DNA of 24,783 nt from positions 1 through 24,783 of IMG/VR virus record IMGVR_UViG_3300020192_000079; one strand, given 5' to 3'. A model generated the notes under the pieces. The model searched no databases, was not told the origin of the DNA, and worked only from the letters and a program-made list of their open reading frames with translations. Origin of the DNA: a virus. The position numbers and the translations under genes were made by a program. Below are positions 13,315-23,401 of the stretch, one piece after another; position 1 is the stretch's first letter; each line of letters begins with the position of its first letter.

Positions 13315-13899
13315 TCACGCCGTGCCTCGTGGCCCGTCGCCGATGCCGGCGGTGAGCCGCTTGAGGCGTGCGTCATCGCTCGGCAATAGGGGCGGTTCCC
13401 GAACGGGCGGGGCGAGCCCCTTCGCGGCGGCCTGGTGCGCCCGCTGGTAGGCGTCGGCGAACGCGCGGCGGGTGAACGGCCGGTCCCGATCGGTGAGGGT
13501 GCCGAAGGCGGAGCTCCCGCCACAGGCGGCGAACGCTTCGGCTGCCGCCCAGCCCAGCTCACTACCGATGCGGACAATACCCCAGGCGGTGGCGCTGGTG
13601 CGGCGGTCAGTCTCCGCCTCGATGCGGTCGAAGAGTCGGCCCGCCTCGGCGGCGGCGTCCACGTAGGGCTGCGCGTGCCGGCGGATCGTGCTAGGAACCG
13701 GGAACATCTCGTTAGGCTGCGGCGTCCACCCGTCGCGGATGCGGATGATCGCGGACTGCACATCGGCGAGCGGCAGGTCGCGCAGGGCGTCGAAGTACAC
13801 CGACAACATCGGCCGGGACACCTCGCGGTTGAACGTGACGCCGAGGGCGGTGAGACCTGCGGCGAACAGCCTCCGGTGATCCAGGTTGTGGTAGTCCAT
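13315..13899 (-). CDS. Putative replicative helicase loader (P-like)
   Basis: This is a 194-residue protein starting MDYHNLDHRRLFAAGLTALG, with the ATG overlapping the O-like stop (TGATG). The pattern of an N-terminal helix, YFDALRDLPLADVQSAIIRI, then NEMFPVPSTIRRHA is characteristic of phage helicase loaders: a helix with Y...L.DLP...V..A and a PxPxxIR turn. Such loaders lack an ATPase domain and bring the host DnaB to the origin. The C-terminal part is helical and basic with FADAYQRAHQAAAKGLA. Its place directly after the initiator-like gene matches the lambda O-P order, which adds weight to both assignments. Confidence 0.6.
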   Translation of the reverse strand: MDYHNLDHRRLFAAGLTALGVTFNREVSRPMLSVYFDALRDLPLADVQSAIIRIRDGWTPQPNEMFPVPSTIRRHAQPYVDAAAEAGRLFDRIEAETDRRTSATAWGIVRIGSELGWAAAEAFAACGGSSAFGTLTDRDRPFTRRAFADAYQRAHQAAAKGLAPPVREPPLLPSDDARLKRLTAGIGDGPRGTA

Positions 13900-14825
13900 C
13901 AGCCCCCCTCAGCGAAGGCGCGGGCGGCGTCCAGCGTGGCCGCCTCACGCTGGGTGACGCCACGCCCGGGGCGGGAGGGGCGGGGCGCTTCGGGCGCGAG
14001 ACAGGCGCGGAAATACCTGGCGTTCCAGTCGGCGCCGGGCTTGGTCAGGAAATCCCGACAGACGGTCGCCAATCGCTCCGGGTCGACTGGCTGCCCAGCC
14101 GGCGTATCGAGCCCGTCGAGACAGGCGCTGAGCACGGCCACCCAACCGCGGACGCTGGTGCCCGGGGAGGCTTCGCAGAACTCGGTGACGGCGACCCGGG
14201 CCCCGCCGGTGTCGGGGAGACGGGTGAGCAGCGCCGCGAACCCCGGAACAGCCTCGCGCGGTGAGGGGTGTTGTAGTTCCGTATCGTCTACGTACCGTAT
14301 ACGCGGAGAATCCCCGCGGGGATTTGTCGGGGTTCCCCGGAGAATCCCCGCGGGGATTTGTCGGGATTCCCCGGAGAATCCCCGCGGGGATTTGTCGGGG
14401 TTCCCCGGAGAATCCCCGCGGGGATTTGTCGGGGTTCCCCGGAGAATCCCCGCGGGGATTTGTCGGGATTCCCCGCGGGGATTCTCCGGTAAGCCGTTCG
14501 GCCTGACCGGCTTACGGCGGCTGCGCTCCTGCTCACGGAGCACCCCTTCGTTGCGCCACCAGCCGCGGAGATTGCCGGACTCGTCCACGCACCGTTCCCG
14601 GAAGGCGGCGGCAAACCGCCCCGGCTTCCCCCGCCACATTGCCCACTGCTCGAGCAGCTCGTCGGAGACCTCTCCGACCCGCCCATCGGCCCTGTGCATG
14701 CCGAATCCACAGCAGGCTGCGGCGTAGTGTCCTAGGGCATGTGCCAGCGGAAGTTTGAGTCGGTCGGCGAGCCAGCCGACCACGTCCGACTGTGGCGTGG
14801 AGGTATCCCACCGAATCCAGGTCAC
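13899..14825 (-). CDS. Putative replication initiator (O-like) with embedded repeats
   Basis: This is a 308-residue protein from GTG 14825 (preceded by GAGGTGA and overlapping the previous TGA as GTGA). Residues about 1-95 (VVGWLADRLKLPLAHALGHY, RVGEVSDELLEQWAMWRGKP, NLRGWWRNEGVLREQE) match the N-terminal winged-helix region of phage replisome-organiser proteins. Residues about 115-180 are encoded by the tandem repeats and read as a Pro/Gly/Arg/Ser linker with a 34-residue period. The C-terminal domain (FAALLTRLPDTGGARVAVTE onward to about 300) is helical and probably contacts the loader. A linker-borne origin is the lambda O arrangement. The function is inferred from domain layout and neighbours. 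Confidence 0.6.
   Translation of the reverse strand: MTWIRWDTSTPQSDVVGWLADRLKLPLAHALGHYAAACCGFGMHRADGRVGEVSDELLEQWAMWRGKPGRFAAAFRERCVDESGNLRGWWRNEGVLREQERSRRKPVRPNGLPENPRGESRQIPAGILRGTPTNPRGDSPGNPDKSPRGFSGESRQIPAGILRGTPTNPRGDSPRIRYVDDTELQHPSPREAVPGFAALLTRLPDTGGARVAVTEFCEASPGTSVRGWVAVLSACLDGLDTPAGQPVDPERLATVCRDFLTKPGADWNARYFRACLAPEAPRPSRPGRGVTQREAATLDAARAFAEGG
14307..14476. repeat. Five tandem 34-bp palindromic repeats, candidate replication origin iterons
   Basis: Identical units begin at 14307, 14341, 14375, 14409 and 14443. Each contains the perfect 16-bp palindrome AATCCCCGCGGGGATT followed by TTGTCGGG, one variable base (G,A,G,G,A) and TTCCCCGG. The second half forms another dyad in the G variant. 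A partial inverted copy follows at 14468-14488. The units are head-to-tail with no unique spacers, so this is not a CRISPR array. They lie in the middle of the O-like gene, as lambda origin iterons do inside gene O. Confidence 0.9.
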
Positions 14826-15169
14826 TCATTCACCTCATACGTGGCGGCGGGGTTGCCGAGGGCGGAGCGGCCGACGCCGACGGGGCGGATCTGGCGGCCG
14901 TAGTCGAGGGAGGCGAGCTGGCACACGCGCGGCCGACACTGCAGCGGTTGCAGCCCACAGAGGGCGCCCGCCGCATCGGCGGTCAGCGTGCCGTGCGTGC
15001 GGAACACGGCGAGGATGCGAGCGCGGTGCTCCTCGTGCTCGCCGTCACGGGTGCCGAGGGCCTCGGCGCGGGCATCCTGCGGCGCGAGCAGCGGAGAGCG
15101 GAGCGAGTCAAAGAGCGCGAGCCCCCTCACCTGCTCAGACGGGAGAGGGTTGCCAGATCCGCGCTTCAC
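14822..15169 (-). CDS. Winged helix-turn-helix protein
   Basis: This is a 115-residue protein starting at GTG 15169 in a GTGA overlap with the methyltransferase stop. The C-terminal half reads EEHRARILAVFRTHGTLTAD, then ALCGLQPLQCRPRVCQLASL, then a wing around IRPVGVGRSALGNPAATYEV. This is the usual phage winged-helix arrangement for regulators that also appear next to replication initiators. The N-terminal 45 residues are polar and probably flexible. It could control the replication genes that follow or assist initiation; neither is shown. The longer frame to 15382 is a shadow of the methyltransferase. Confidence 0.55.
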   Translation of the reverse strand: MKRGSGNPLPSEQVRGLALFDSLRSPLLAPQDARAEALGTRDGEHEEHRARILAVFRTHGTLTADAAGALCGLQPLQCRPRVCQLASLDYGRQIRPVGVGRSALGNPAATYEVNE

Positions 15170-15870
15170 GCCGTCACCACGAAGTCGAGCGCGCCTTGCG
15201 CAAGCCGCTTGGCTGCGATCTCGCAGTAGCGCTCTTCGATCTCGATCCCAATGGCGCGACGGCCTAGGCTTTTCGCGGCGACTAGGGTTGTGCCGGAGCC
15301 CATGAAGGGGTCGAGGACAAGGCCGTCGAGCGGAGTCAGGCAGCGGATTAGCGTCTGGATCGGCGCAAGCGGCTTCTCGCACGGGTGCCCCCAGCCCTCA
15401 CCTCTGCGGTTTGGCGTCATGCCGATCCATCGGTTCGGCTCATAGCCCGTGCCGTACCATGCGCGCTTAACGCTGCGACGTTTCGCGATCACGCATTCTT
15501 CAACAGCAGAAACAAACGAGGGGCGAGGCGTGGGCGGTGGCGCTTGCTTCACGAGATAGAACTTCGCCCACGGCTCGAACCCGGCGGCCCGCATGGCGAT
15601 CTCCGCATCCGAGACTGTGGCGCTATCGACGAACGAAGCGACGTGAGCCGCGGTCTGCGGAGCGAAAGCTAGCCACCAATACGGCGACGCGGTCGCATTC
15701 CAGCCGCCCCGGAAATAGAGTTCCGCGCCCCCGCGCCGCACAAACGCGGCGCCGCTAGGGATTCCATACGGCGGGTCCGTAACGACGGCGTCAGCCTCAA
15801 GCGTCGGCATGATCTCCCGACAATCCCCGTGGTAGATCGTGATGCCGTCGCGCTCGTAGTAGGGGGTCAC
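15166..15870 (-). CDS. DNA methyltransferase, N6-adenine/N4-cytosine class
   Basis: This is a 234-residue enzyme starting at GTG 15870. Motif IV TDPPYG (31-36) precedes the AdoMet-binding motif LDPFMGSGTT (about 187-195), i.e. the permuted beta-class order, and GWGHPCEKPLAPIQTLIRCL lies between them as in this family. It would methylate an amino group of adenine or cytosine in phage DNA, probably protecting it from host restriction. It overlaps the upstream methyltransferase stop (GTGA) and the downstream regulator. No partner restriction enzyme is adjacent, so it is an orphan methyltransferase. DPPY favours adenine, but the target base cannot be read from the sequence. Confidence 0.88.
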   Translation of the reverse strand: MTPYYERDGITIYHGDCREIMPTLEADAVVTDPPYGIPSGAAFVRRGGAELYFRGGWNATASPYWWLAFAPQTAAHVASFVDSATVSDAEIAMRAAGFEPWAKFYLVKQAPPPTPRPSFVSAVEECVIAKRRSVKRAWYGTGYEPNRWIGMTPNRRGEGWGHPCEKPLAPIQTLIRCLTPLDGLVLDPFMGSGTTLVAAKSLGRRAIGIEIEERYCEIAAKRLAQGALDFVVTA

Positions 15871-16838
15871 GGCTGCCGCCGATAGGACTGGAGCAGGGCG
15901 TCAGCCACGCCCCCGAGGTCGAGCACTCCCTGACCGCCAAGGCAAGCGGGCGACAGCCAGAGCCGCTCACGCTGTCCGGCCCCGGCGTCGGCGTTGTATC
16001 CAGGTCCACCGCCTGCCCGTCCTCTCACCTTGCGCCAGCCGAGCGCCAGCAGATCATCGTGATCGTCGAGATACCCCGCGAGAACGATACGGAGCGCGGG
16101 GTCGGCTGTCCGGCACCACTCGCGGACCGCCGACGTGATGTCGGCGCCCCGGTGCCCGTAGATGTCGGGCGAAGTGGAATACGGTGGGTCGAGAAAAACG
16201 GCCCGCTTACCGTCGCCGCCGCTCCCGGAGTCAAAGGCGCTCGGCTGCACGACGCGCGCCCAATCCCCGCAGGTGATCCGCACGTGCGCAAGTCGCGATT
16301 GCAGCCGTGAGAAATAGGCAAGGAGCGCCCCTTGGCCCGCGTCGCCGAGGTGCGGCAGCTCGCGGGTCACCCCTTGGCCCGCGTCGCCCTTGACGAGGTG
16401 CCCGTCTACGACCCGCCACGGCCCCGCTTCCCACGGGTCGCCGATCCCGCACGCGCAGACGTACAGCCACCAGCCCGCAGCCTTGGCGTCGTGCGCCTCG
16501 GGGTCGCCTTCGAGCCACGCGACAAACGAAGTGCTACGCCGCTCCTGCAGCCACGCGCTGCGCGCGTGATAGTCGATCTCCGTGACGGGTCCGTATGCTG
16601 CATCCGCGACCCCGGCCGGGTCATGCTGGAGCGCTCTCCACATATTCACCAGCCAGCCGTCGGCGTCGTTGAGTGTCTCGACTCGTCGCGAGGCGACGCG
16701 CGGGCGCGCCAGCAGCACCGCTGCCGACCCCGCGAACGGCTCGACATATCCGGCCGGGTCGCCGAGCGCGGCCCATACAATCGGCGCGGCGCGACGTTTG
16801 CCGCCGAAGTACGGCATCGGGGCGGCGATGGCGGGCAT
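15867..16838 (-). CDS. D12-class (Dam-like) N6-adenine DNA methyltransferase
   Basis: This is a 323-residue protein with the alpha-class order: PYFGGKRR (9-16), AdoMet motif VEPFAGSAAV (32-41), then catalytic FLDPPYS (about 215-221). The FGGK and EPFAG signatures are diagnostic of the D12/Dam family. The ATG at 16838 was chosen because AGGAG lies 7 bases upstream; two more distant starts are less well placed. The likely role is adenine methylation of phage DNA as anti-restriction or timing mark. It is followed by a second methyltransferase of a different class in a GTGA overlap, an uncommon tandem pairing. Confidence 0.9.
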   Translation of the reverse strand: MPAIAAPMPYFGGKRRAAPIVWAALGDPAGYVEPFAGSAAVLLARPRVASRRVETLNDADGWLVNMWRALQHDPAGVADAAYGPVTEIDYHARSAWLQERRSTSFVAWLEGDPEAHDAKAAGWWLYVCACGIGDPWEAGPWRVVDGHLVKGDAGQGVTRELPHLGDAGQGALLAYFSRLQSRLAHVRITCGDWARVVQPSAFDSGSGGDGKRAVFLDPPYSTSPDIYGHRGADITSAVREWCRTADPALRIVLAGYLDDHDDLLALGWRKVRGRAGGGPGYNADAGAGQRERLWLSPACLGGQGVLDLGGVADALLQSYRRQP

Positions 16839-16840
16839 GG

Positions 16841-17266
16841 TCACGCTCCTGCAGGACGTGATGCCCGACCGACCGCGCACATAGCCGTCAGCAGATCACA
16901 GGCGGCGGCCTGCAAGGCTTCAACCGTCGGGGGGAGGGCGTCCCACGCGGCGGTGAGGCTGGCCACCGCGGCGCGGAGTTTGTCAGACTCGGCGCGGGCC
17001 TGCAGCGTGAGCTGCTCCTCTCGTTGGCCGTAGGCGTAGAGCCGCTGCGCCCGATCCCGCTCCGCCACCAACTCTACACGGAGGGCGTCACCCTGCGCCT
17101 CCGCGTCAGCGCACTGGCGCCGTACGCTGTCGTGACGCCCCATCCACTCGTCGCGGCTCCGCCTCATCCACTCCACCTCGGCCAGCGCCCGACCGAGGTC
17201 GCCTGAGCCAAAACTGTCGTTGCCACCCGACGTGGGGCCGTCCTGGCGTGCTGGACCAATCGTCAC
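16841..17266 (-). CDS. Coiled-coil early protein
   Basis: This is a 141-residue protein from GTG 17266, overlapping the previous TGA (GTGA). Residues 25-45 (GRALAEVEWMRRSRDEWMGR) are nearly identical to the last residues of the zinc protein at 18218-18583. The rest is a long charged helix (RQCADAEAQGDALRVELVAE, then LTLQARAESDKLRAAVASLT) with heptad character, ending ASRPAGA. An alternative start is the ATG at 17167. The shared segment suggests that this is the C-terminal part of an older, longer gene separated from its N-terminal part by inserted units. The function is unknown. Confidence 0.5.
   Translation of the reverse strand: MTIGPARQDGPTSGGNDSFGSGDLGRALAEVEWMRRSRDEWMGRHDSVRRQCADAEAQGDALRVELVAERDRAQRLYAYGQREEQLTLQARAESDKLRAAVASLTAAWDALPPTVEALQAAACDLLTAMCAVGRASRPAGA
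17146..17193. repeat. 48-bp repeat shared by the coiled-coil and zinc genes, copy 1
   Basis: This matches 18220-18267 with one mismatch (T at 17172, G at 18246). Both copies encode RALAEV(E/A)WMRRSRDE in the same frame. It ends the zinc gene and lies near the start of the coiled-coil gene. Confidence 0.9.
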
Positions 17267-17380: not shown

Positions 17381-17716
17381 TCACCCCGCATTTTTCCGGG
17401 AAATCGGGCGGATTCTTAGTGACAAGAAGTCACGGTCCGCGATCAATCGTCTCGGAGCAGCGTTGGACGCCACCCTGGCGATTGCCTTTGCGGGCGCGAG
17501 CCAGGCGGCGAGCGTCTCGTCCCGGAGGATGGCGCGGCACAGTTGCGCGACGGGACCGGGGACGGGCCAGTCCCCCCGGAGGTAGCGTCGGACCGTGCGT
17601 TCATCGACTCGCAGCATGTGCTCGGCGAAGCCCCGGGACGAGTGTCCCGAGGCGGTGATCGCGGCGCGGAGGATCGGGTTAGGTGTCAGGCGTTCGGTGG
17701 GTGTCGGGGCGGTCAT
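17381..17716 (-). CDS. Helix-turn-helix DNA-binding protein
   Basis: This is a 111-residue protein from ATG 17716 with AGGAG 8 bases upstream. Residues 12-60 (PNPILRAAITASGHSSRGFA, then LRVDERTVRRYLRGDWPVPG) form a clear helix-turn-helix of the Cro/XRE-like type seen in small phage regulators. The last 25 residues differ in character. Their DNA includes a 30-bp block shared in another frame with the 18218-18583 gene, so the C-terminus probably arose by recombination. The first ten residues (MTAPTPTERL) and the whole promoter region are identical to those of the gene at 17811-18101. It may regulate the early promoters it shares. Confidence 0.6.
   Translation of the reverse strand: MTAPTPTERLTPNPILRAAITASGHSSRGFAEHMLRVDERTVRRYLRGDWPVPGPVAQLCRAILRDETLAAWLAPAKAIARVASNAAPRRLIADRDFLSLRIRPISRKNAG
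17432..17461. repeat. 30-bp exact repeat, copy 1 (3' part of HTH gene)
   Basis: This is identical to 18475-18504. Here it is read in a different frame (APRRLIADRD) from the zinc gene (CSETIDRGPS), so it is shared by DNA recombination rather than by protein homology. Confidence 0.9.
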
Positions 17717-17808
17717 TTGGGGCTCCTGGAGTGGGTCGGGCTGGATTGCCCTGACCCAACTAATATAGGCAGACTGTCCGGGGAGCGCAAGGGGCGGGTT
17801 TCCCCTTG
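17688..17808 (-). repeat. 121-bp direct repeat, copy 1 (promoter, leader and first codons)
   Basis: This block is identical to 18073-18193 (offset 385). It carries a complete promoter, an inverted repeat, a ribosome site and the first ten codons of the following gene. The identical N-terminus MTAPTPTERL of two otherwise unrelated proteins follows from this. Perfect identity implies recent duplication or continuing gene conversion. Confidence 0.93.
17732..17790 (-). promoter_or_regulatory. Sigma-70-like early promoter with inverted repeat over the start site (copy 1)
   Basis: On the minus strand -35 TTGCGC (17790-17785) and -10 TATATT (17767-17762) are separated by exactly 17 bp. A 27-bp imperfect inverted repeat (17732-17758), with arms TGGGTC and GACCCA and inner GGGC/GCCC, overlaps the expected transcription start. 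It could be an operator or a 5' leader hairpin. It ends 16 bases before the ATG, just upstream of the AGGAG site. Confidence 0.65.
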
Positions 17809-17810
17809 GT

Positions 17811-18101
17811 TCAGCCCTCCTGGGTGGCAGTGTACTCAGACAGGGGGTAGGTCCAGCCGTCGCGGATATCCACCGTCCGTGTGTCTCCGGCGTCCCAGCC
17901 TGTCGGCAGTCCGATCCGGACCAACTCATCCGAGCGGAACGACAACGCCTTACGGCCGCCGCGTTCGATCGAGGCCCGGCAAGCGAACGCCTCCTTCGAA
18001 TCGTAGAAATTGGTGCTCGTGGTCCAGCGGTAGCGCTGGGTGCCGCCGTTGCGCCAGACGACGACGTAGGCGAGGCGTTCGGTGGGTGTCGGGGCGGTCA
18101 T
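17811..18101 (-). CDS. Small early protein of unknown function
   Basis: This is a 96-residue protein from ATG 18101 with an AGGAG site 8 bases upstream. After the duplicated N-terminus (MTAPTPTERL) it reads AYVVVWRNGGTQRYRWTTST, then EAFACRASIERGGRKALSFR, ending WTYPLSEYTATQEG. This is a compact alpha/beta pattern with a W.NGG..R.RW strand pair and a helix with R.ERGGRKA. Similar small proteins occur among early genes of many phages without known function. It is flanked on both sides by identical promoter copies and so forms a self-contained promoter-gene unit. Confidence 0.55.
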   Translation of the reverse strand: MTAPTPTERLAYVVVWRNGGTQRYRWTTSTNFYDSKEAFACRASIERGGRKALSFRSDELVRIGLPTGWDAGDTRTVDIRDGWTYPLSEYTATQEG

Positions 18102-18193
18102 TTGGGGCTCCTGGAGTGGGTCGGGCTGGATTGCCCTGACCCAACTAATATAGGCAGACTGTCCGGGGAGCGCAAGGGGCGGGTTTCCCCTTG
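18073..18193 (-). repeat. 121-bp direct repeat, copy 2
   Basis: This is an exact copy of 17688-17808. It precedes the gene at 17811-18101. The right boundary is 24 bp before the stop codon of the 18218-18583 gene, so the repeat abuts a gene that appears truncated. Confidence 0.93.
18117..18175 (-). promoter_or_regulatory. Sigma-70-like early promoter with inverted repeat (copy 2)
   Basis: The elements match copy 1: -35 TTGCGC at 18175-18170, -10 TATATT at 18152-18147, 17-bp spacer, inverted repeat at 18117-18143, and ATG at 18101. It would drive the 17811-18101 gene, and readthrough would continue into the HTH gene. Confidence 0.65.
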
Positions 18194-18583: not shown

Positions 18584-18930
18584 ATCCCGACACCGCCCGG
18601 CCGCGGGGGCGTCACGCGGCACCCCAGAGCGAGCGCCGCGCCGATCATGCGCGCGGTGTCGAACGTGGCTAACTGTTTCGGTGTCACCAGCAGGAGCCGC
18701 CAGCCCAGCAGGGCGCCGGCGTTGCGCTTCTCGTGATCCTTGACGATGCCACTGCCCCGCCCATGCCTCCCCCGCGTCCAGACACCGCCATCCTGTTCGA
18801 GCGCCAGCCTGTGGTCGGGCCACGCATAGTCCCAGCGCCACATCCTGACGGGGTGAAAGCGGTACTCGGCGACCGGCAGCGGCACCCCAACACTGTGCAG
18901 CAGTGCGAGGAAGCATGCACTGACGCTCAC
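18580..18930 (-). CDS. Putative PD-(D/E)xK-type endonuclease
   Basis: This is a 116-residue protein from GTG 18930 (GTGA overlap). The core reads YRFHPVRMWRWDYAWPDHRL, ALEQDGGVWTRGRHGRGSGI, then VKDHEKRNAGALLGWRLLLV. The order W..D.A.P..LA.E.DGG.W, a H.R..G...D..K segment and GWR..LV.P matches a widespread small phage nuclease-like family (Vsr/DUF559-like restriction fold). Asp in WDYAW and Glu in ALEQDG are the likely metal-binding acids, and the D..K segment provides further conserved polar residues. It may be a junction-resolving or DNA-processing nuclease; the substrate is not shown. Confidence 0.62.
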   Translation of the reverse strand: MSVSACFLALLHSVGVPLPVAEYRFHPVRMWRWDYAWPDHRLALEQDGGVWTRGRHGRGSGIVKDHEKRNAGALLGWRLLLVTPKQLATFDTARMIGAALALGCRVTPPRPGGVGI

Positions 18931-19343
18931 GCCCGCCCCCTCCCGCACGCCTGACAGGTGATACCGACGGTCGCGGCTTGGCAGTGCGAGCAGCGGACCC
19001 GGTGCGTCGCCAGCACCTCCGCCAACTCCGTGGCCATCTTCGATTCGAGCTTGGCGAGGTCCATGCACGGTGTGGTCGGTGGGCGCCCAACGATGATGCC
19101 GGCCAGGCGGTTCGCCGCCTTCTTGTCGCGCGCTTTGCCCCAGAGGTCACGCCGTTCCTCGACTGTCATCGTCGCCCAGCGCGCTTTGTTATCCCGGGTG
19201 CGGGACAGGTCACGGCAGGCCGGGCATCGGCGCGCCAGTGGGCCGTGCCGGCCCATGATGACGAGACCGCCGCACCCATCCATGCAGAGGACAAAGGCGG
19301 GCCGCGTGCTCCGGCCCCGGTCTGCGCTGCGTCGTGGTTCCAT
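18927..19343 (-). CDS. Zinc-ribbon early protein (intact copy)
   Basis: This is a 138-residue protein from ATG 19343, with a strong AGGAGG 5 bases upstream. Cys pairs occur at LCMDGCGG (about 20-25), RRCPACRD (about 39-44) and, at the C-terminus, VRCSHCQ and ITCQACGRG, flanking a basic helix (TVEERRDLWGKARDKKAANR). Four knuckles with a central basic region suggest one or two zinc ribbons that bind nucleic acid. DNA at 19254-19332 is repeated with two mismatches at 20663-20741, inside the foreign cassette region, where only the N-terminal 25 or so codons are kept. The function is unknown. Confidence 0.6.
   Translation of the reverse strand: MEPRRSADRGRSTRPAFVLCMDGCGGLVIMGRHGPLARRCPACRDLSRTRDNKARWATMTVEERRDLWGKARDKKAANRLAGIIVGRPPTTPCMDLAKLESKMATELAEVLATHRVRCSHCQAATVGITCQACGRGRA
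19254..19332. repeat. 79-bp repeat of the zinc-ribbon gene, phage copy
   Basis: This matches 20663-20741 at offset 1409 with two mismatches. It encodes the N-terminal part of the intact zinc-ribbon protein (18927-19343). Confidence 0.9.
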
Positions 19344-19917: not shown

Positions 19918-20172
19918 TTATCGGATTCGCCGGTCCAGCACCTTGAGCACGCCCTCGCGGCATATCTGCAGCTCGGCCCGGTCGCGCGCGGACTTGCCCA
20001 GCAACTTCGCCAGCGCCTCCGCCCTCGCCAGTTCCTGCGCCACATGCGCGAGGGTGTTCTGGTAGCGGATCTCGTGTAGGAGTTGCGGCACCTGGCTGGC
20101 TACCGTCCGATCCACGAACGACGTAAGGACCGCCCGCTGCTGCAGGGCCCGCACATGCTCATGCTGTGCCAC
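19918..20172 (-). CDS. Helical early protein of unknown function
   Basis: This is an 84-residue protein. GTG 20172 was chosen because AGGAGG sits 6 bases upstream; a GTG at 20178 would overlap the site. It reads MAQHEHVRALQQRAVLTSFV, then VASQVPQLLHEIRYQNTLAH and VAQELARAEALAKLLGKSAR, all amphipathic helix, ending LKVLDRRIR. No motif identifies a family. It overlaps the end of the membrane-protein gene, and its TAA nearly touches the tRNA-Glu gene, so tRNA processing must cut this transcript. Confidence 0.5.
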   Translation of the reverse strand: MAQHEHVRALQQRAVLTSFVDRTVASQVPQLLHEIRYQNTLAHVAQELARAEALAKLLGKSARDRAELQICREGVLKVLDRRIR

Positions 20173-20416
20173 GGTCACCCTCCTGCACACAGGACTCCTC
20201 CTGATCGGTCAGCCGCTCGCCGTCGTCACCCAGCACCTCGCCCGGCGTGACCTTGCGGGACCAGGTGTCCCCCGGCAGCATCGGCGGCGCGCTCGGCGCG
20301 GTGTAGTCGTCCCAGTACATCTCGTCCGGGGCGTGGTCGAGCACCGTGCCGACCACCCAGAAGCAGAGCAGCACGAACAGCAGCGCGCCGAACAGGATGC
20401 CGAATCCGATCAGCAT
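20159..20416 (-). CDS. Small membrane-anchored protein at the cassette junction
   Basis: This is an 85-residue protein starting MLIGFGILFGALLFVLLCFW. Residues 3-26 form one clear membrane helix, followed by a polar acidic tail (HAPDEMYWDDYTAPSAPPML to EGDRGTA), presumably cytoplasmic or periplasmic. No family is recognised. The ATG at 20416 directly abuts the GTTAGGC core at 20417-20423, so whatever preceded the gene before the cassette insertion was replaced. The start now overlaps the end of a truncated methyltransferase frame, which may supply ribosomes by coupling. Confidence 0.55.
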   Translation of the reverse strand: MLIGFGILFGALLFVLLCFWVVGTVLDHAPDEMYWDDYTAPSAPPMLPGDTWSRKVTPGEVLGDDGERLTDQEESCVQEGDRGTA

Positions 20417-20481
20417 GTTAGGCCGTCAGCAATCAGCGTCCTCATCGTGTCGCGGCAGTCGCCAAAAAATACGCGGTTCAT
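20410..20481 (-). pseudogene. Truncated 5' end of the cassette methyltransferase (23 codons)
   Basis: From ATG 20481, with AGGAGG just upstream, 20 codons (MNRVFFGDCRDTMRTLIADG) match the start of the split methyltransferase at 22505. The frame then crosses the core site and stops at a TGA overlapping the next gene's start (ATGCTGA). It lacks the TSPPY motif and all catalytic parts. It may now serve only as a coupled leader for the membrane-protein gene. Confidence 0.7.
20417..20423 (+). other. Left cassette insertion junction, core site GTTAGGC
   Basis: GTTAGGC fits the GTTRRRY integron core, but no attC hairpin lies to its left; phage coding sequence does. The same GTTAGGC occurs at the right end (22582-22588). 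This is the expected outcome of insertion between G and TTAGGC at a secondary site in the phage. Confidence 0.65.
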
Positions 20482-20514
20482 AGTTCCTCCTGTTTACCCA
20501 CCAAGCCATCTAAC
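20422..20514. repeat. 93-bp direct repeat, copy 1 (methyltransferase 5' end and attC core)
   Basis: This is identical to 22446-22538 except for one base (C at 20440, T at 22464). It spans the first 20 codons of the methyltransferase, its ribosome site and the ATCTAAC core of the adjoining attC. The two copies flank about 1.9 kb and could recombine. Confidence 0.93.
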
Positions 20515-20549
20515 CGGGCGCTCAAGCGGACGCTACACAGCGTGCCGCC
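20508..20549 (+). other. Broken attC site (left half only)
   Basis: ATCTAAC followed by GCGCTCAAGCGGACGC matches the left arm of the intact site at 22532 (TCAAGCGGACGC shared). The expected right arm stops after GCGTGCCGCC and is replaced by AAATAAAAAATT; no GTTRRRY core follows. Confidence 0.6.
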
Positions 20550-20761
20550 AAATAAAAAATTCTCCAGGTCTGGTGCATCGTCAAGATTCGTTCGCACCCT
20601 GGGACGCGAACGCGCAAATATCCGCCGCGGGCGCCTACGATGGTCCCGGCCCGGCCCTGGATCATGATGACGAGACCGCCGCACACATCCATGCAGAGGA
20701 CAAGGGCGGGCCGCGTGCTCCGGCCCCGGTCTGCGCTGCGTATCACCACTTTCTTTGCCAT
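20522..20761 (-). pseudogene. Truncated zinc-ribbon gene fragment inside cassette A
   Basis: This 79-codon frame from ATG 20761 opens MAKKVVIRSADRGRSTRPAL, VLCMDVCGGLVIM, matching the intact zinc-ribbon protein (18927-19343) over about its first 25 residues, and then diverges completely. The later zinc knuckles and basic helix are absent, and the end reads through the broken attC. DNA identity to 19254-19332 is high (two mismatches in 79 bp). This looks like a captured and truncated phage gene fragment. Confidence 0.6.
20663..20741. repeat. 79-bp repeat, copy inside cassette A
   Basis: This is the counterpart of 19254-19332. It encodes the start of the truncated zinc-ribbon fragment within the cassette region. 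Confidence 0.9.
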
Positions 20762-20792
20762 CTTCGCCTTTCAGTTGTTCGCCACCAGTGAA

Positions 20793-20850
20793 ACCTAACT
20801 TTAGGTGCAGCGGACTTGCCTACGGCAAGCCGCTGACCATGACGTTAGAT
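20793..20850 (+). other. attC recombination site, cassette A
   Basis: The cores are ACCTAAC (20793-20799) and GTTAGAT (20844-20850). The arms pair as GGT-CAGCGG-CTTGCC with single unpaired G and A on the left arm and a TAC loop. The extra A corresponds to the extrahelical T of the recombinogenic bottom strand. The 58-bp length is typical of short attC sites. The right core supplies the stop codon of the methyltransferase C-part. Confidence 0.78.
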
Positions 20851-21723
20851 GGCAAGCGCCGCCTGAGCAGTGCGTGCCCGTTGCAGTGGTGCGTACTCGG
20901 GGTTGAGTTCGCACCCGACCCATTGCCGGCCCAGGGCCTGCGCAACCTGTCCTGTCGTGCCCGACCCGAAGAACGGATCGAGCACCACGTCACCTGTCCG
21001 GCTGCCGGCCAGGATGCACGGCTCGATCAGTGCAGGCGGGAACGTGGCGAAGTGGGCGCCGCTGTAGGGCACGGTCGGCACGGTCCAGACGCTGCGGCGG
21101 TTGCGGGTTTCGCGTAGCTCCATGTCGCGTCTGCCGTTATCGCCCCGCTGTTCGCAGTCTCCCTTGCTCCTTGCATTGCCGAAGTTTTCGCGCCCTGCAC
21201 TCATTTCCTGCATCGCTTCCGCATCCCAAAAGTACCGCTCGCTCTTGGCCAGCAGGAACAGGTACTCATGCGCCTTCGTGCAGCGGTCGGTCACGCTCTC
21301 GGGCATGGGGTTTGGCTTGTGCCAGATGATGTCTTGGCGCAAGTACCAGCCGGCATCCTGCAGGGCAAAGGCCACGCGCCAAGGGATGCCGATCAGGTCT
21401 TTGTGTTTGAGTCCTATTTTGCTGGCGTTTCGATGCGCATGGACGGAGCCGTGCCCTCGGTGCGCGTCGGCGTCCCCGGCACCGCCCACGCCGCCCGCAA
21501 GAGTTTCAGCAGGCATGGCTGTTCCGCCGCGCTGCGCCGCATAGCTGTCGCCCAAGTTCAGCCACAGCACGCCATCGTCGGCCAGCAGCTCGCGCACCAG
21601 TCCGAATACTTCCACCATCGCGGCCACGAACTCGGCGGGCGTCTTCTCAAGCCCGATTTCAGCGGGCTCGAAGCACTCAAGCAGGTGCGGCGGAATCTGG
21701 CTTTTTAGGTAGACGTTACCCAC
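20845..21723 (-). CDS. DNA methyltransferase, C-terminal part (AdoMet-binding half)
   Basis: This is a 292-residue protein from GTG 21723, with AGGAG 7 bases upstream and the HNH stop overlapping (GTGGGTAA). It begins MGNVYLKSQIPPHLLECFEP and continues EFVAAMVEVFGLVRELLADD, GVLWLNLGDSYAA, LRQDIIWHKPNPMPESVTDR and the AdoMet motif VVLDPFFGSGTTGQVAQALG near the end. It lacks only motif IV, which sits on the N-part. Together the parts make a beta-class m4C/m6A enzyme of about 360 residues. It stops in the attC core. A two-subunit enzyme or a dead gene are both possible; the good ribosome site favours expression. Confidence 0.8.
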   Translation of the reverse strand: MGNVYLKSQIPPHLLECFEPAEIGLEKTPAEFVAAMVEVFGLVRELLADDGVLWLNLGDSYAAQRGGTAMPAETLAGGVGGAGDADAHRGHGSVHAHRNASKIGLKHKDLIGIPWRVAFALQDAGWYLRQDIIWHKPNPMPESVTDRCTKAHEYLFLLAKSERYFWDAEAMQEMSAGRENFGNARSKGDCEQRGDNGRRDMELRETRNRRSVWTVPTVPYSGAHFATFPPALIEPCILAGSRTGDVVLDPFFGSGTTGQVAQALGRQWVGCELNPEYAPLQRARTAQAALAI

Positions 21724-22306
21724 AGATAAACTCCTTGCTCGCGTTCTTTTTGCTGTGAACAAACAAATGGCATTTGCGGCACAGAACAGCCACATTCGAC
21801 AGATCAAAGCGCAGATCAGGATTCCCGGCCCACGCCTTCAGGTGGTGAACGTGTAGCGGGTTGGCGCGATCCTGTTTGCCGCCGCACCTGGCGCAGCAGT
21901 AACCGCCAGCGCGATGCGCCGCCCGCAAGAACTCCTTGCCCTCCGATTGCGCGTACATGCGCTGCCTCTCGGGGCTGCTGCCGTCTACATAGTTGTGATT
22001 CAGCGCGCCGATCTTTCCGTACATCGGATTCGCTGGCCCCTCTGCACCCCAATGCTTGATGGCGCGCGCACCAGCTACCGAGCGCCGTGGGATAGCGTGC
22101 TTTCGTAGCCAGAAAAAGATAGCAGCGCCACTGGTGCCGAACTGCTTTGCAATCTCGCCAGTGCTGCGCTGCTGCACCACATAGTTCTCAGTGAGCCAAT
22201 CCTTTTCTCGGAATGGTTGAGGCGTGCGCCAGTGTTGCCCTGGCTTGAACTCGGTCGCGGGCGACAGGCGTTGCCCCGCGACGAGTCGACCGTCATTCGT
22301 GGACAT
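21716..22306 (-). CDS. HNH endonuclease inserted in the methyltransferase gene
   Basis: This is a 196-residue protein from ATG 22306 (a GTG two codons earlier is possible). Residues about 36-72 (STGEIAKQFGTSGAAIFFWL) form a helix-turn-helix for target recognition. The C-terminus is a zinc-bound HNH nuclease: CCARCGG (137-143), LHVHHLKAWAG (151-161), LSNVAVLCRKCH (169-180) and VHSKKN. These are the signature HH, N and H positions plus two CxxC pairs. Mobile HNH genes of this type cut DNA at the site they occupy and spread by repair. It overlaps both methyltransferase parts by a few bases. Confidence 0.85.
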   Translation of the reverse strand: MSTNDGRLVAGQRLSPATEFKPGQHWRTPQPFREKDWLTENYVVQQRSTGEIAKQFGTSGAAIFFWLRKHAIPRRSVAGARAIKHWGAEGPANPMYGKIGALNHNYVDGSSPERQRMYAQSEGKEFLRAAHRAGGYCCARCGGKQDRANPLHVHHLKAWAGNPDLRFDLSNVAVLCRKCHLFVHSKKNASKEFICG

Positions 22307-22505
22307 GAACACCAGCCTCCCTTAGTTGCCGCTCTACCCACGCCTTTTTCTCTGGCGTCAGTGATGCTTTGATGCGAACGGCATCGCCAAAATATTGCCT
22401 AAGCCCAAAATACGGCGGGCTCGTCACGCAGCACTGCACCCGCACGCCGTCAGCAATCAGCGTTCTCATCGTGTCGCGGCAGTCGCCAAAAAATACGCGG
22501 TTCAT
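22293..22505 (-). CDS. DNA methyltransferase, N-terminal part (TSPPY half)
   Basis: This is a 70-residue product from ATG 22505 with AGGAGG 6 bases upstream. It carries MNRVFFGDCRDTMRTLIADG and motif IV CCVTSPPYFGLRQYFGD (about 26-42), then a charged helix (SLTPEKKAWVERQLREAGVH) and a stop just inside the HNH gene. TSPPY is the catalytic motif of beta-class N4-cytosine (sometimes N6-adenine) enzymes. The missing AdoMet half is encoded by 20845-21723 after the HNH insertion. Alone it cannot bind AdoMet. Confidence 0.8.
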   Translation of the reverse strand: MNRVFFGDCRDTMRTLIADGVRVQCCVTSPPYFGLRQYFGDAVRIKASLTPEKKAWVERQLREAGVHVHE

Positions 22506-22538
22506 AGTTCCTCCTGTTTACCCACCAAGCCATCTAAC
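22446..22538. repeat. 93-bp direct repeat, copy 2
   Basis: This is the counterpart of 20422-20514 (offset 2024, one mismatch). This copy is attached to the longer methyltransferase N-part and an intact attC. Confidence 0.93.
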
Positions 22539-22588
22539 ACTGCATTCAAGCGGACGCCGTGCCGGCGCCGCTTAATGCAACGTTAGGC
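22532..22588 (+). other. attC recombination site, cassette B (canonical)
   Basis: The cores are ATCTAAC (22532-22538) and GTTAGGC (22582-22588). The inner arms TGCATT(C)AAGCGG(A)CGCCG and CGGCGCCGCTTAATGCA pair perfectly, leaving only C and A extra on the top strand, i.e. extrahelical G and T on the bottom strand, with a 3-base loop. This is the textbook attC structure and gives its orientation. GTTAGGC is shared with phage sequence at the insertion point. Confidence 0.88.
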
Positions 22589-23401
22589 GGCATCGGAGTC
22601 CTCCAGCGCGACCGGCTCCGGGACCTGCCGTGCCATCTCCTCCCGCTCGGCATCGAGGTACGGGTCGCCGCTGGTGAGCTGATGCCGCCCGATCTCGCTG
22701 GCGAGCTTGGCCTGCTCGACCGTCTCGCGGGTCTGCTCCAGCACCCGGACCCCGAGCGCGGCGCCCGTCGTCTCCAGCCGTGCCATCTCCGCCTGCACCC
22801 GGGGGACGTGGCTGGCAATGATCCGCATGGCCCGGCGCGCCGCTCGGCTCGCGCTGCTCTCGATGGGGAACGCATCGCCCACCGGGTCACCCTTGCGGGT
22901 GCCGCCGCCGCACCACTTCACGCCGACAATCTCCTCGGTTAGACTGTGCAGCTTCACCCGGAAGCAACATGCGGCTGCGGCCGCATCGGGCACGGCGTGC
23001 TTGATGCGCTGCATGGCGCGCCGCTCATCCTCAGCGTGCGCTTCCGGTGTGCCGATCTTGAGCAGGCGGGGATCCACCTGGATATAGTCCGCGACGGCAT
23101 ATTCCACGAGCCCGGCTGCGATCATCTCGCCGAGTTTCCGCAGGTAGAACCTGGCGTTTGGGTAGATGTTGCCGCCGAGTAGATCAATTTCGGTAATTAC
23201 ATCGACGTTGTTATCCCGCCCCCAGTTGGCGACAGCGCGGCGGGTTTCAGCGTCCAGCGCCTTGCCCCAGTTGAGTGCGGCGAGTTGGGCTACGACGGCG
23301 TTCTGCGCTTTGCGGTGCTCGATCGCAGCCAGCACCTCGGGCGGCAGAATGGACGGGCGCGCTGCGGGCGTGGTCGCCGCCGTAGACTCGGGCGCGCTCA
23401 T
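22583..23401 (-). CDS. Putative single-strand annealing recombinase (RecT/Bet-like)
   Basis: This is a 272-residue protein from ATG 23401 (ATGA overlap). The centre reads TEIDLLGGNIYPNARFYLRK, then LGEMIAAGLVEYAVADYIQV, then VGVKWCGGGTRKGDPVGDAF and SRAARRAMRIIASHVP. A central region ending in a cluster of basic residues after KGDPVGD-like turns is typical of phage annealing proteins that act with an exonuclease. The identification is from overall pattern and early-gene position, not a diagnostic motif. Its stop codon TAA lies in the GTTAGGC core, so the cassette inserted exactly at its 3' end without changing the protein. Confidence 0.45.
   Translation of the reverse strand: MSAPESTAATTPAARPSILPPEVLAAIEHRKAQNAVVAQLAALNWGKALDAETRRAVANWGRDNNVDVITEIDLLGGNIYPNARFYLRKLGEMIAAGLVEYAVADYIQVDPRLLKIGTPEAHAEDERRAMQRIKHAVPDAAAAACCFRVKLHSLTEEIVGVKWCGGGTRKGDPVGDAFPIESSASRAARRAMRIIASHVPRVQAEMARLETTGAALGVRVLEQTRETVEQAKLASEIGRHQLTSGDPYLDAEREEMARQVPEPVALEDSDAA

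Follow-up and report, generated by a model that had tools for sequence, protein, structure and literature searches.

An array of reversed, integrase-less gene cassettes in a tailed phage, very probably rearranged by an integron integrase in trans

The window analysed here, one entire IMG/VR contig of 24,783 bp with its genes on the - strand, is tailed-phage DNA (portal, terminase and capsid-protease genes confirmed by PHROGs, two tRNA-Glu genes). Between two phage genes, designated A and B, it carries an array of integron cassettes that lacks an integrase, in which the cassettes are reversed and which is very probably rearranged by an IntI acting in trans.

The attC sites and the genes of the array

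Two attC sites are located 1.7 kb apart, both on the + strand: site 1 at 22532-22588 and site 2 at 20793-20850, the latter upstream, in the - sense, of the small cassette gene orfK. The covariance model R1, trained on 12 attC sites from class 1 integrons/plasmids and Betaproteobacteria and containing no phage sequence, attributes 52.3 bits (E 8e-12) to site 1 and 35.1 bits (E 3e-7) to site 2. In the 24.8-kb window only these two places were matched, the sole further match up to E=10 being the reverse strand of site 1, which scores 27.6 bits against the 52.3 of the + strand, the canonical top strand. The single-strand folds of the two sites, -21.3 and -16.6 kcal/mol, are equalled by no shuffle (z about -5; -5.2 for site 1 and -5.5 for site 2), and the bottom-strand extrahelical bases and loop of both sites give a dot-bracket architecture identical to that of the aadA1 attC. 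A simple finder of R-boxes and hairpins recovered these two sites alone in the window, and 40 dinucleotide shuffles of the whole window never yielded a short-loop match better than -11.1 kcal/mol. With R1, 77 other viral loci with related methyltransferases (635 kb) gave no match with E up to 1; the Rfam search returned no attC match. Site 1 is 79-82% identical to attC sites of the betaproteobacterial MS502 bins, and the contigs retrieved by a site-1-like attC pattern belong to bins of Betaproteobacteria; in two of these bins a full-score intI is present. The window sites are genuine attC: the two attC-like sites announced by the original prediction are borne out by the R1 scores, the folds and the shuffle controls, the structure that it attributed to the bottom strand of site 1 (extrahelical bases and loop) is that of aadA1, and a covariance model, the kind of check that it recommended, gives strong matches at both.

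The array follows a simple order on the - strand. Gene A (22583-23401), which ends GCCGCCTAA|C, is 99-100% identical at the protein level in the sister contigs L001 and L002 and has no PHROG or Pfam match. It is followed by attC site 1, an HNH-split methyltransferase with its stop codon in ATCTAA|C, attC site 2, orfK, a half attC, a truncated methyltransferase start and GCCTAAC, directly after which comes the ATG of gene B (20159-20416), a junction found again in L001 and L002. The crossover of site 1, G|TT, falls at 22582/22583 and reads GCCTAA|C on the - strand, at the stop codon of gene A, the TAA of which is part of the recombination box; the ATCTAAC box of site 2 contains the methyltransferase TAA in the same way.

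The methyltransferase, of the N6/N4 DNA type, is encoded on the - strand by an N-terminal part (22293-22505), which aligns with the methyltransferase N-termini of L005/L006 and others, and by a C-terminal part (20845-21720; Pfam N6_N4_Mtase, E 2e-44) whose stop codon lies in the attC box. Inside it is an HNH endonuclease gene (21716-22312, - strand; Pfam HNH, E 1.8e-8). Over 21716-22505, the HNH gene interrupts the methyltransferase after REAGV and before YLKSQIPP, and the stops and starts overlap; a similar HNH occupies the same sort of methyltransferase position in L003, and L005/L006 have no HNH match. No Pfam match was found for orfK (20522-20761, - strand). Over 79 bp (20663-20741) orfK is 97% identical to positions 19254-19332 of the phage gene at 18927-19343; it may have been built from that gene, or that gene from orfK.

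Two copies of a 112-bp direct repeat (20422-20533 and 22446-22557; 95% identical) span the methyltransferase 5' end and a half attC. The first holds the truncated copy of the methyltransferase 5' end (20424-20481, - strand), and the repeat together with the sequence itself identifies a truncated attC half (ATCTAACCGGGCGCTCAAGCGGACGCTACACAGCGTGCCGCC) on the + strand at 20508-20549, between orfK and the methyltransferase fragment. In the window this half has no covariance-model match; the corresponding hybrid site of the L001 record scores 20.9 bits. The bare GTTAGGC core that had been noticed at 20417 is present (20417-20423, + strand) at the gene-B end of the insertion, for which the putative pre-insertion site is CATG|TTAGGCGGCATC. 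The original prediction had delimited two cassettes of 427 and 1738 bp. Its sites stand; its 427-bp cassette does not stand as a simple unit, since the third, truncated attC half makes of it a fusion of orfK with a methyltransferase fragment.

Two other features of the window lie away from the array. Its presumed early region contains a 121-bp perfect direct repeat (17688-17808 and 18073-18193), where the sister record G001 is arranged differently, and short, partly palindromic tandem repeats occupy 14304-14489, within an ORF (13899-14825) weakly matching a PHROG replication initiation protein.

Exchange between sister phages

In the sister IMG/VR contigs L001 and L002 the flanks are about 99.5% identical to those of the window, whereas the cassettes at this position differ. 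Between genes A and B, the window has the methyltransferase with HNH followed by orfK; in L001 come orfK and then an apparent C5 cytosine methyltransferase gene; L002 carries orfK, the methyltransferase with HNH and a second orfK. L001 is the record G001, of 34,058 bp, apparently circular and complete because it ends in an exact 127-bp terminal repeat. After the common GC(C/T)GCCTAA|C of gene A comes attC site 1 in the window and the orfK attC in L001 and L002, so that the switch among the three phages coincides exactly with GCCTAA|C, the point of crossover by IntI. The gene-B junction is identical in all three, and some internal junctions, such as that of orfK with the C5 methyltransferase in L001, lie off a perfect box. 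The evidence at this locus is of exchange among phages and, since cassette content differs between nearly identical phages, natural phage genomes appear to be subject to integron recombination.

An alternative is that the cassette block was captured once, and that its variants arose by unequal crossing-over at the 112-bp and orfK repeats, through homologous recombination or tandem duplication and with no IntI at work in the phage. It would account for the 95% repeat and the duplicated orfK of L002, for the several junctions off attC boxes and for the gene-B junction shared by the three phages, and we regard it as unlikely while keeping it in the balance: the attC switches exactly at the GCCTAA|C of gene A while the flank stays, and duplication would not yield the C5 methyltransferase unit of L001, which is new.

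The predicted empty junction, in which the stop of gene A is joined to the start of gene B, is GATGC(C/T)GCCTAACATGCTGATC; from the joined flanks the empty site is expected to read GATGCCGCCTAACATGCTGATC, or G|TTAGGC on the + strand, and its sequence makes a secondary IntI site plausible. This empty site was found in no record, and scans of IMG/VR with gene A and gene C retrieved the two sister contigs alone.

As had been claimed, no integron integrase is encoded in the window, nor in the G001 and L002/G002 records of the sister phages; no attI was seen in the window, and a PF00589 recombinase is absent from G001 and L002. An integrase in cis was considered for the window phage and rejected on the absence of IntI from the sister phages. 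These absences point to an enzyme acting in trans, from a host integron or another phage. The proposed cluster of attC sites without integrase inside a tailed phage is thus upheld: the sites score well in the model, the flanks are those of a phage, and the sister phages differ in their cassettes at this locus, with the crossover at TAA|C.

Polarity of viral and bacterial cassettes

In a canonical integron cassette, the gene is on the top strand of attC and attC is at the 3' end of the gene. The window departs from this polarity. The model prefers + as the top strand and the array genes are all on -, hence on the recombining bottom strand, and each cassette consequently has attC at its beginning and the stop codon of its gene at its end. 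The reversed genes are co-oriented with the phage genes. The original prediction had missed that their direction is opposite to that of normal cassettes.

In two viral sets, both drawn by attC sequence patterns, the direction of the genes was assigned from the length of the ORFs and their GC content by codon position (GC3). Set 1 comprises 41 IMG/VR stretches found by a phage-type attC pattern, plus the window, L002, G007 and G008; set 2, chosen separately, comprises 49 stretches found by a canonical bacterial attC pattern and was counted with the IntI records left out. Reversed cassettes make up 101 of the 116 in set 1 (15 canonical) and 70 of the 87 in set 2 (17 canonical). The bacterial control arrays, from three MS502 bins with integrons and from class 1 plasmids, have 6 reversed and 44 canonical cassettes out of 50, and L227, an IntI-bearing isolate locus, has 12 canonical out of 13 and one reversed. 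Against the bacterial arrays, Fisher tests give p 8e-21 for set 1 and 2e-15 for set 2, figures to be read with the non-independence of cassettes within a record in mind; by the majority in each record, the reversed:canonical ratio is 27:1 in set 1 and 28:2 in set 2, and it is 47:8 in the TerL-positive records alone. Reversed polarity is general across many viral records, and suggests that the format of the cassettes has been adapted to phage operons. It is not universal: Qi et al. 2023 (PMC9892861) assign the usual polarity to the cultured phage TJE1.

In GC-rich DNA both strands carry long ORFs, and the reversal might be suspected of being a gene-calling artefact; this is very improbable, as the same procedure finds 44/50 canonical cassettes in the bacterial arrays and 12/13 in L227, and as the methyltransferases identified in the window and in the viral record G030 are on the reversed strand, like those read in G008 and L001.

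Among the reversed genes of set 1, 50 have their start within the attC that precedes them and 33 have their stop within the box of the following attC; none of the reversed genes of the bacterial control arrays starts inside attC. In G008, MTDEQTTNAGAGPVERGVRP... begins in the attC loop at L109:917, and other such starts occur at 2522 and 5870. The attC sites thus serve as intergenic leaders too. To go further and see in these hairpins transcription terminators or translation leaders that resemble attC and are not recombination sites is scarcely credible in view of the strong match to a bacterial attC model, the strand-specific extrahelical bases, the swap of content at the crossover point and the IntI encoded beside such sites in some phages. 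An assembly chimera of phage and bacterial integron fragments, the danger singled out by the original prediction and one to which metagenomic contigs with repeats within the region are open, is hardly conceivable, because the locus recurs with differing arrays in three contigs (the window and two others, one of these with the exact 127-bp terminal repeat), because unrelated phage contigs carry arrays too, including G007 with a terminal repeat, and because the array polarity is unlike that of bacterial arrays.

Phage integrases and a model for reversed cassettes

Terminase genes accompany such attC sites in at least 16 records outside the window family. G008 (32 kb, with TerL) has eleven model matches in its first 7.7 kb and more sites visible by eye, and genes reading as N6/N4, C5 and D12-type methyltransferases are among its cassette genes. 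G007 (47 kb, exact 114-bp terminal repeat) has model matches at both contig ends, so that its array spans the junction of the circle. The window has D12-type and N6 methyltransferase genes at 15166-16880 in the same order as two adjacent G008 cassettes (L109:4813-6724); parts of the D12 gene are 72-83% identical in DNA, the window copy is now without attC, and these genes are possibly former cassettes. The phage-type attC pattern also occurs in 7 of 300 genomes of the order of G003 (L245-L252), with two copies in one. By the model, attC is absent from phiAH14a, MD-2021a, QDWS and BgManors32, the cultured phages with the nearest methyltransferases, and from Rctr41k, a phage record with an integrase-like gene.

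A full-score IntI is encoded in only three of 39 set-1 records, G026, G030 and G032, the first two of which also encode TerL. The IntI of G026 and G030 are about 74% identical to each other and 53-56% identical to IntI1 and betaproteobacterial IntI; in the phage collection, no record has an IntI closer than 53% to this group. In G026, intI lies between the array and a gene reading as a phage integrase; in G030, it comes after the array and is preceded by early genes, exonuclease VIII among them. Both keep the usual layout of intI and attC, with flipped cassette genes. An attI-like stretch, AACTTCAATTCNNNGACACCNCCTGTC with small changes, is common to five records just before intI, and TerL is present in three of them (G026, G030 and G387). 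IMG/VR records with a related IntI and this common sequence directly upstream are L266, L267, L269, L270 and L177.

The model we propose places the array in a presumed early operon of the tailed phage, where its genes would be expressed early, and has cassettes gained and rearranged by IntI-type recombination in trans, the enzyme being provided by a host integron or an IntI-encoding phage. In gene direction, the reversed unit reads C-attC-(RBS/start)-gene-stop TAA|. Its crossover (G|TT as seen on the opposite strand) would fall right behind the stop codon of the preceding gene, so that gene A would stay whole and the incoming gene would join the operon. Lying in line with the operon, this gene would not need the integron promoter Pc, and the attC would serve as the leader of the next gene. 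The cargo DNA methyltransferases probably protect the phage against host restriction. On a broader proposal we are evenly divided: phages would keep their own pool of reversed cassettes in early operons, served in some members by a phage group of IntI and attI, and integrase-less phages such as that of the window would use this system in trans to exchange DNA methyltransferases.

Phage-borne attC clusters were known before. Qi et al. 2023 (PMC9892861) describe 17 phage CALINs, for example in Tetrasphaera phage TJE1, Polaribacter phage P12002L and Pseudoalteromonas phage PH101, and found five of six tested phage attC sites functional with IntI1. Like the window, these are attC sites without intI in tailed phages, with DNA methyltransferase cargo. 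The CALINs of TJE1 and PH101 are described there as having the typical orientation, whereas the window is reversed, and the sections covered here report neither sister-phage exchange nor systematic reversal. The best R1 match in TJE1 scores 16.2 bits, far below the window sites, and P12002L gives no match; R1 is therefore narrow and under-counts the attC of distant hosts. Bacterial integrons, both class 1 and those of the MS502 bins, share the attC structure and boxes of the window but have top-strand genes and their own intI, where the window has bottom-strand genes and none. The integrons of temperate phages cited in PMC9892861 (Vibrio anguillarum p16, P1, Shewanella M16-3) resemble G026 and G030 in uniting intI and attC in a phage; the Vibrio case, however, is described there as chromosomal integron fragments and P1 as a mosaic of class 1 integrons, whereas the G026/G030 IntI form a group of their own with a common attI-like sequence. 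Spirochaete integrons, mentioned in PMC9668308, share with G026 and G030 an unusual relative orientation of integron parts, but there it is intI that is inverted and here the cassette genes.

The open-access literature searched gave no report of a systematic reversal in phages, of a phage IntI/attI group or of a swap between sister phages, and the reversed variant of the phage cassette array appears to be undescribed so far. With the reversed format, the plugging of genes into a phage operon follows a simple logic. The trade in methyltransferases by which phages counter host restriction is given a testable explanation, and a group of phage integrases becomes available for assay.
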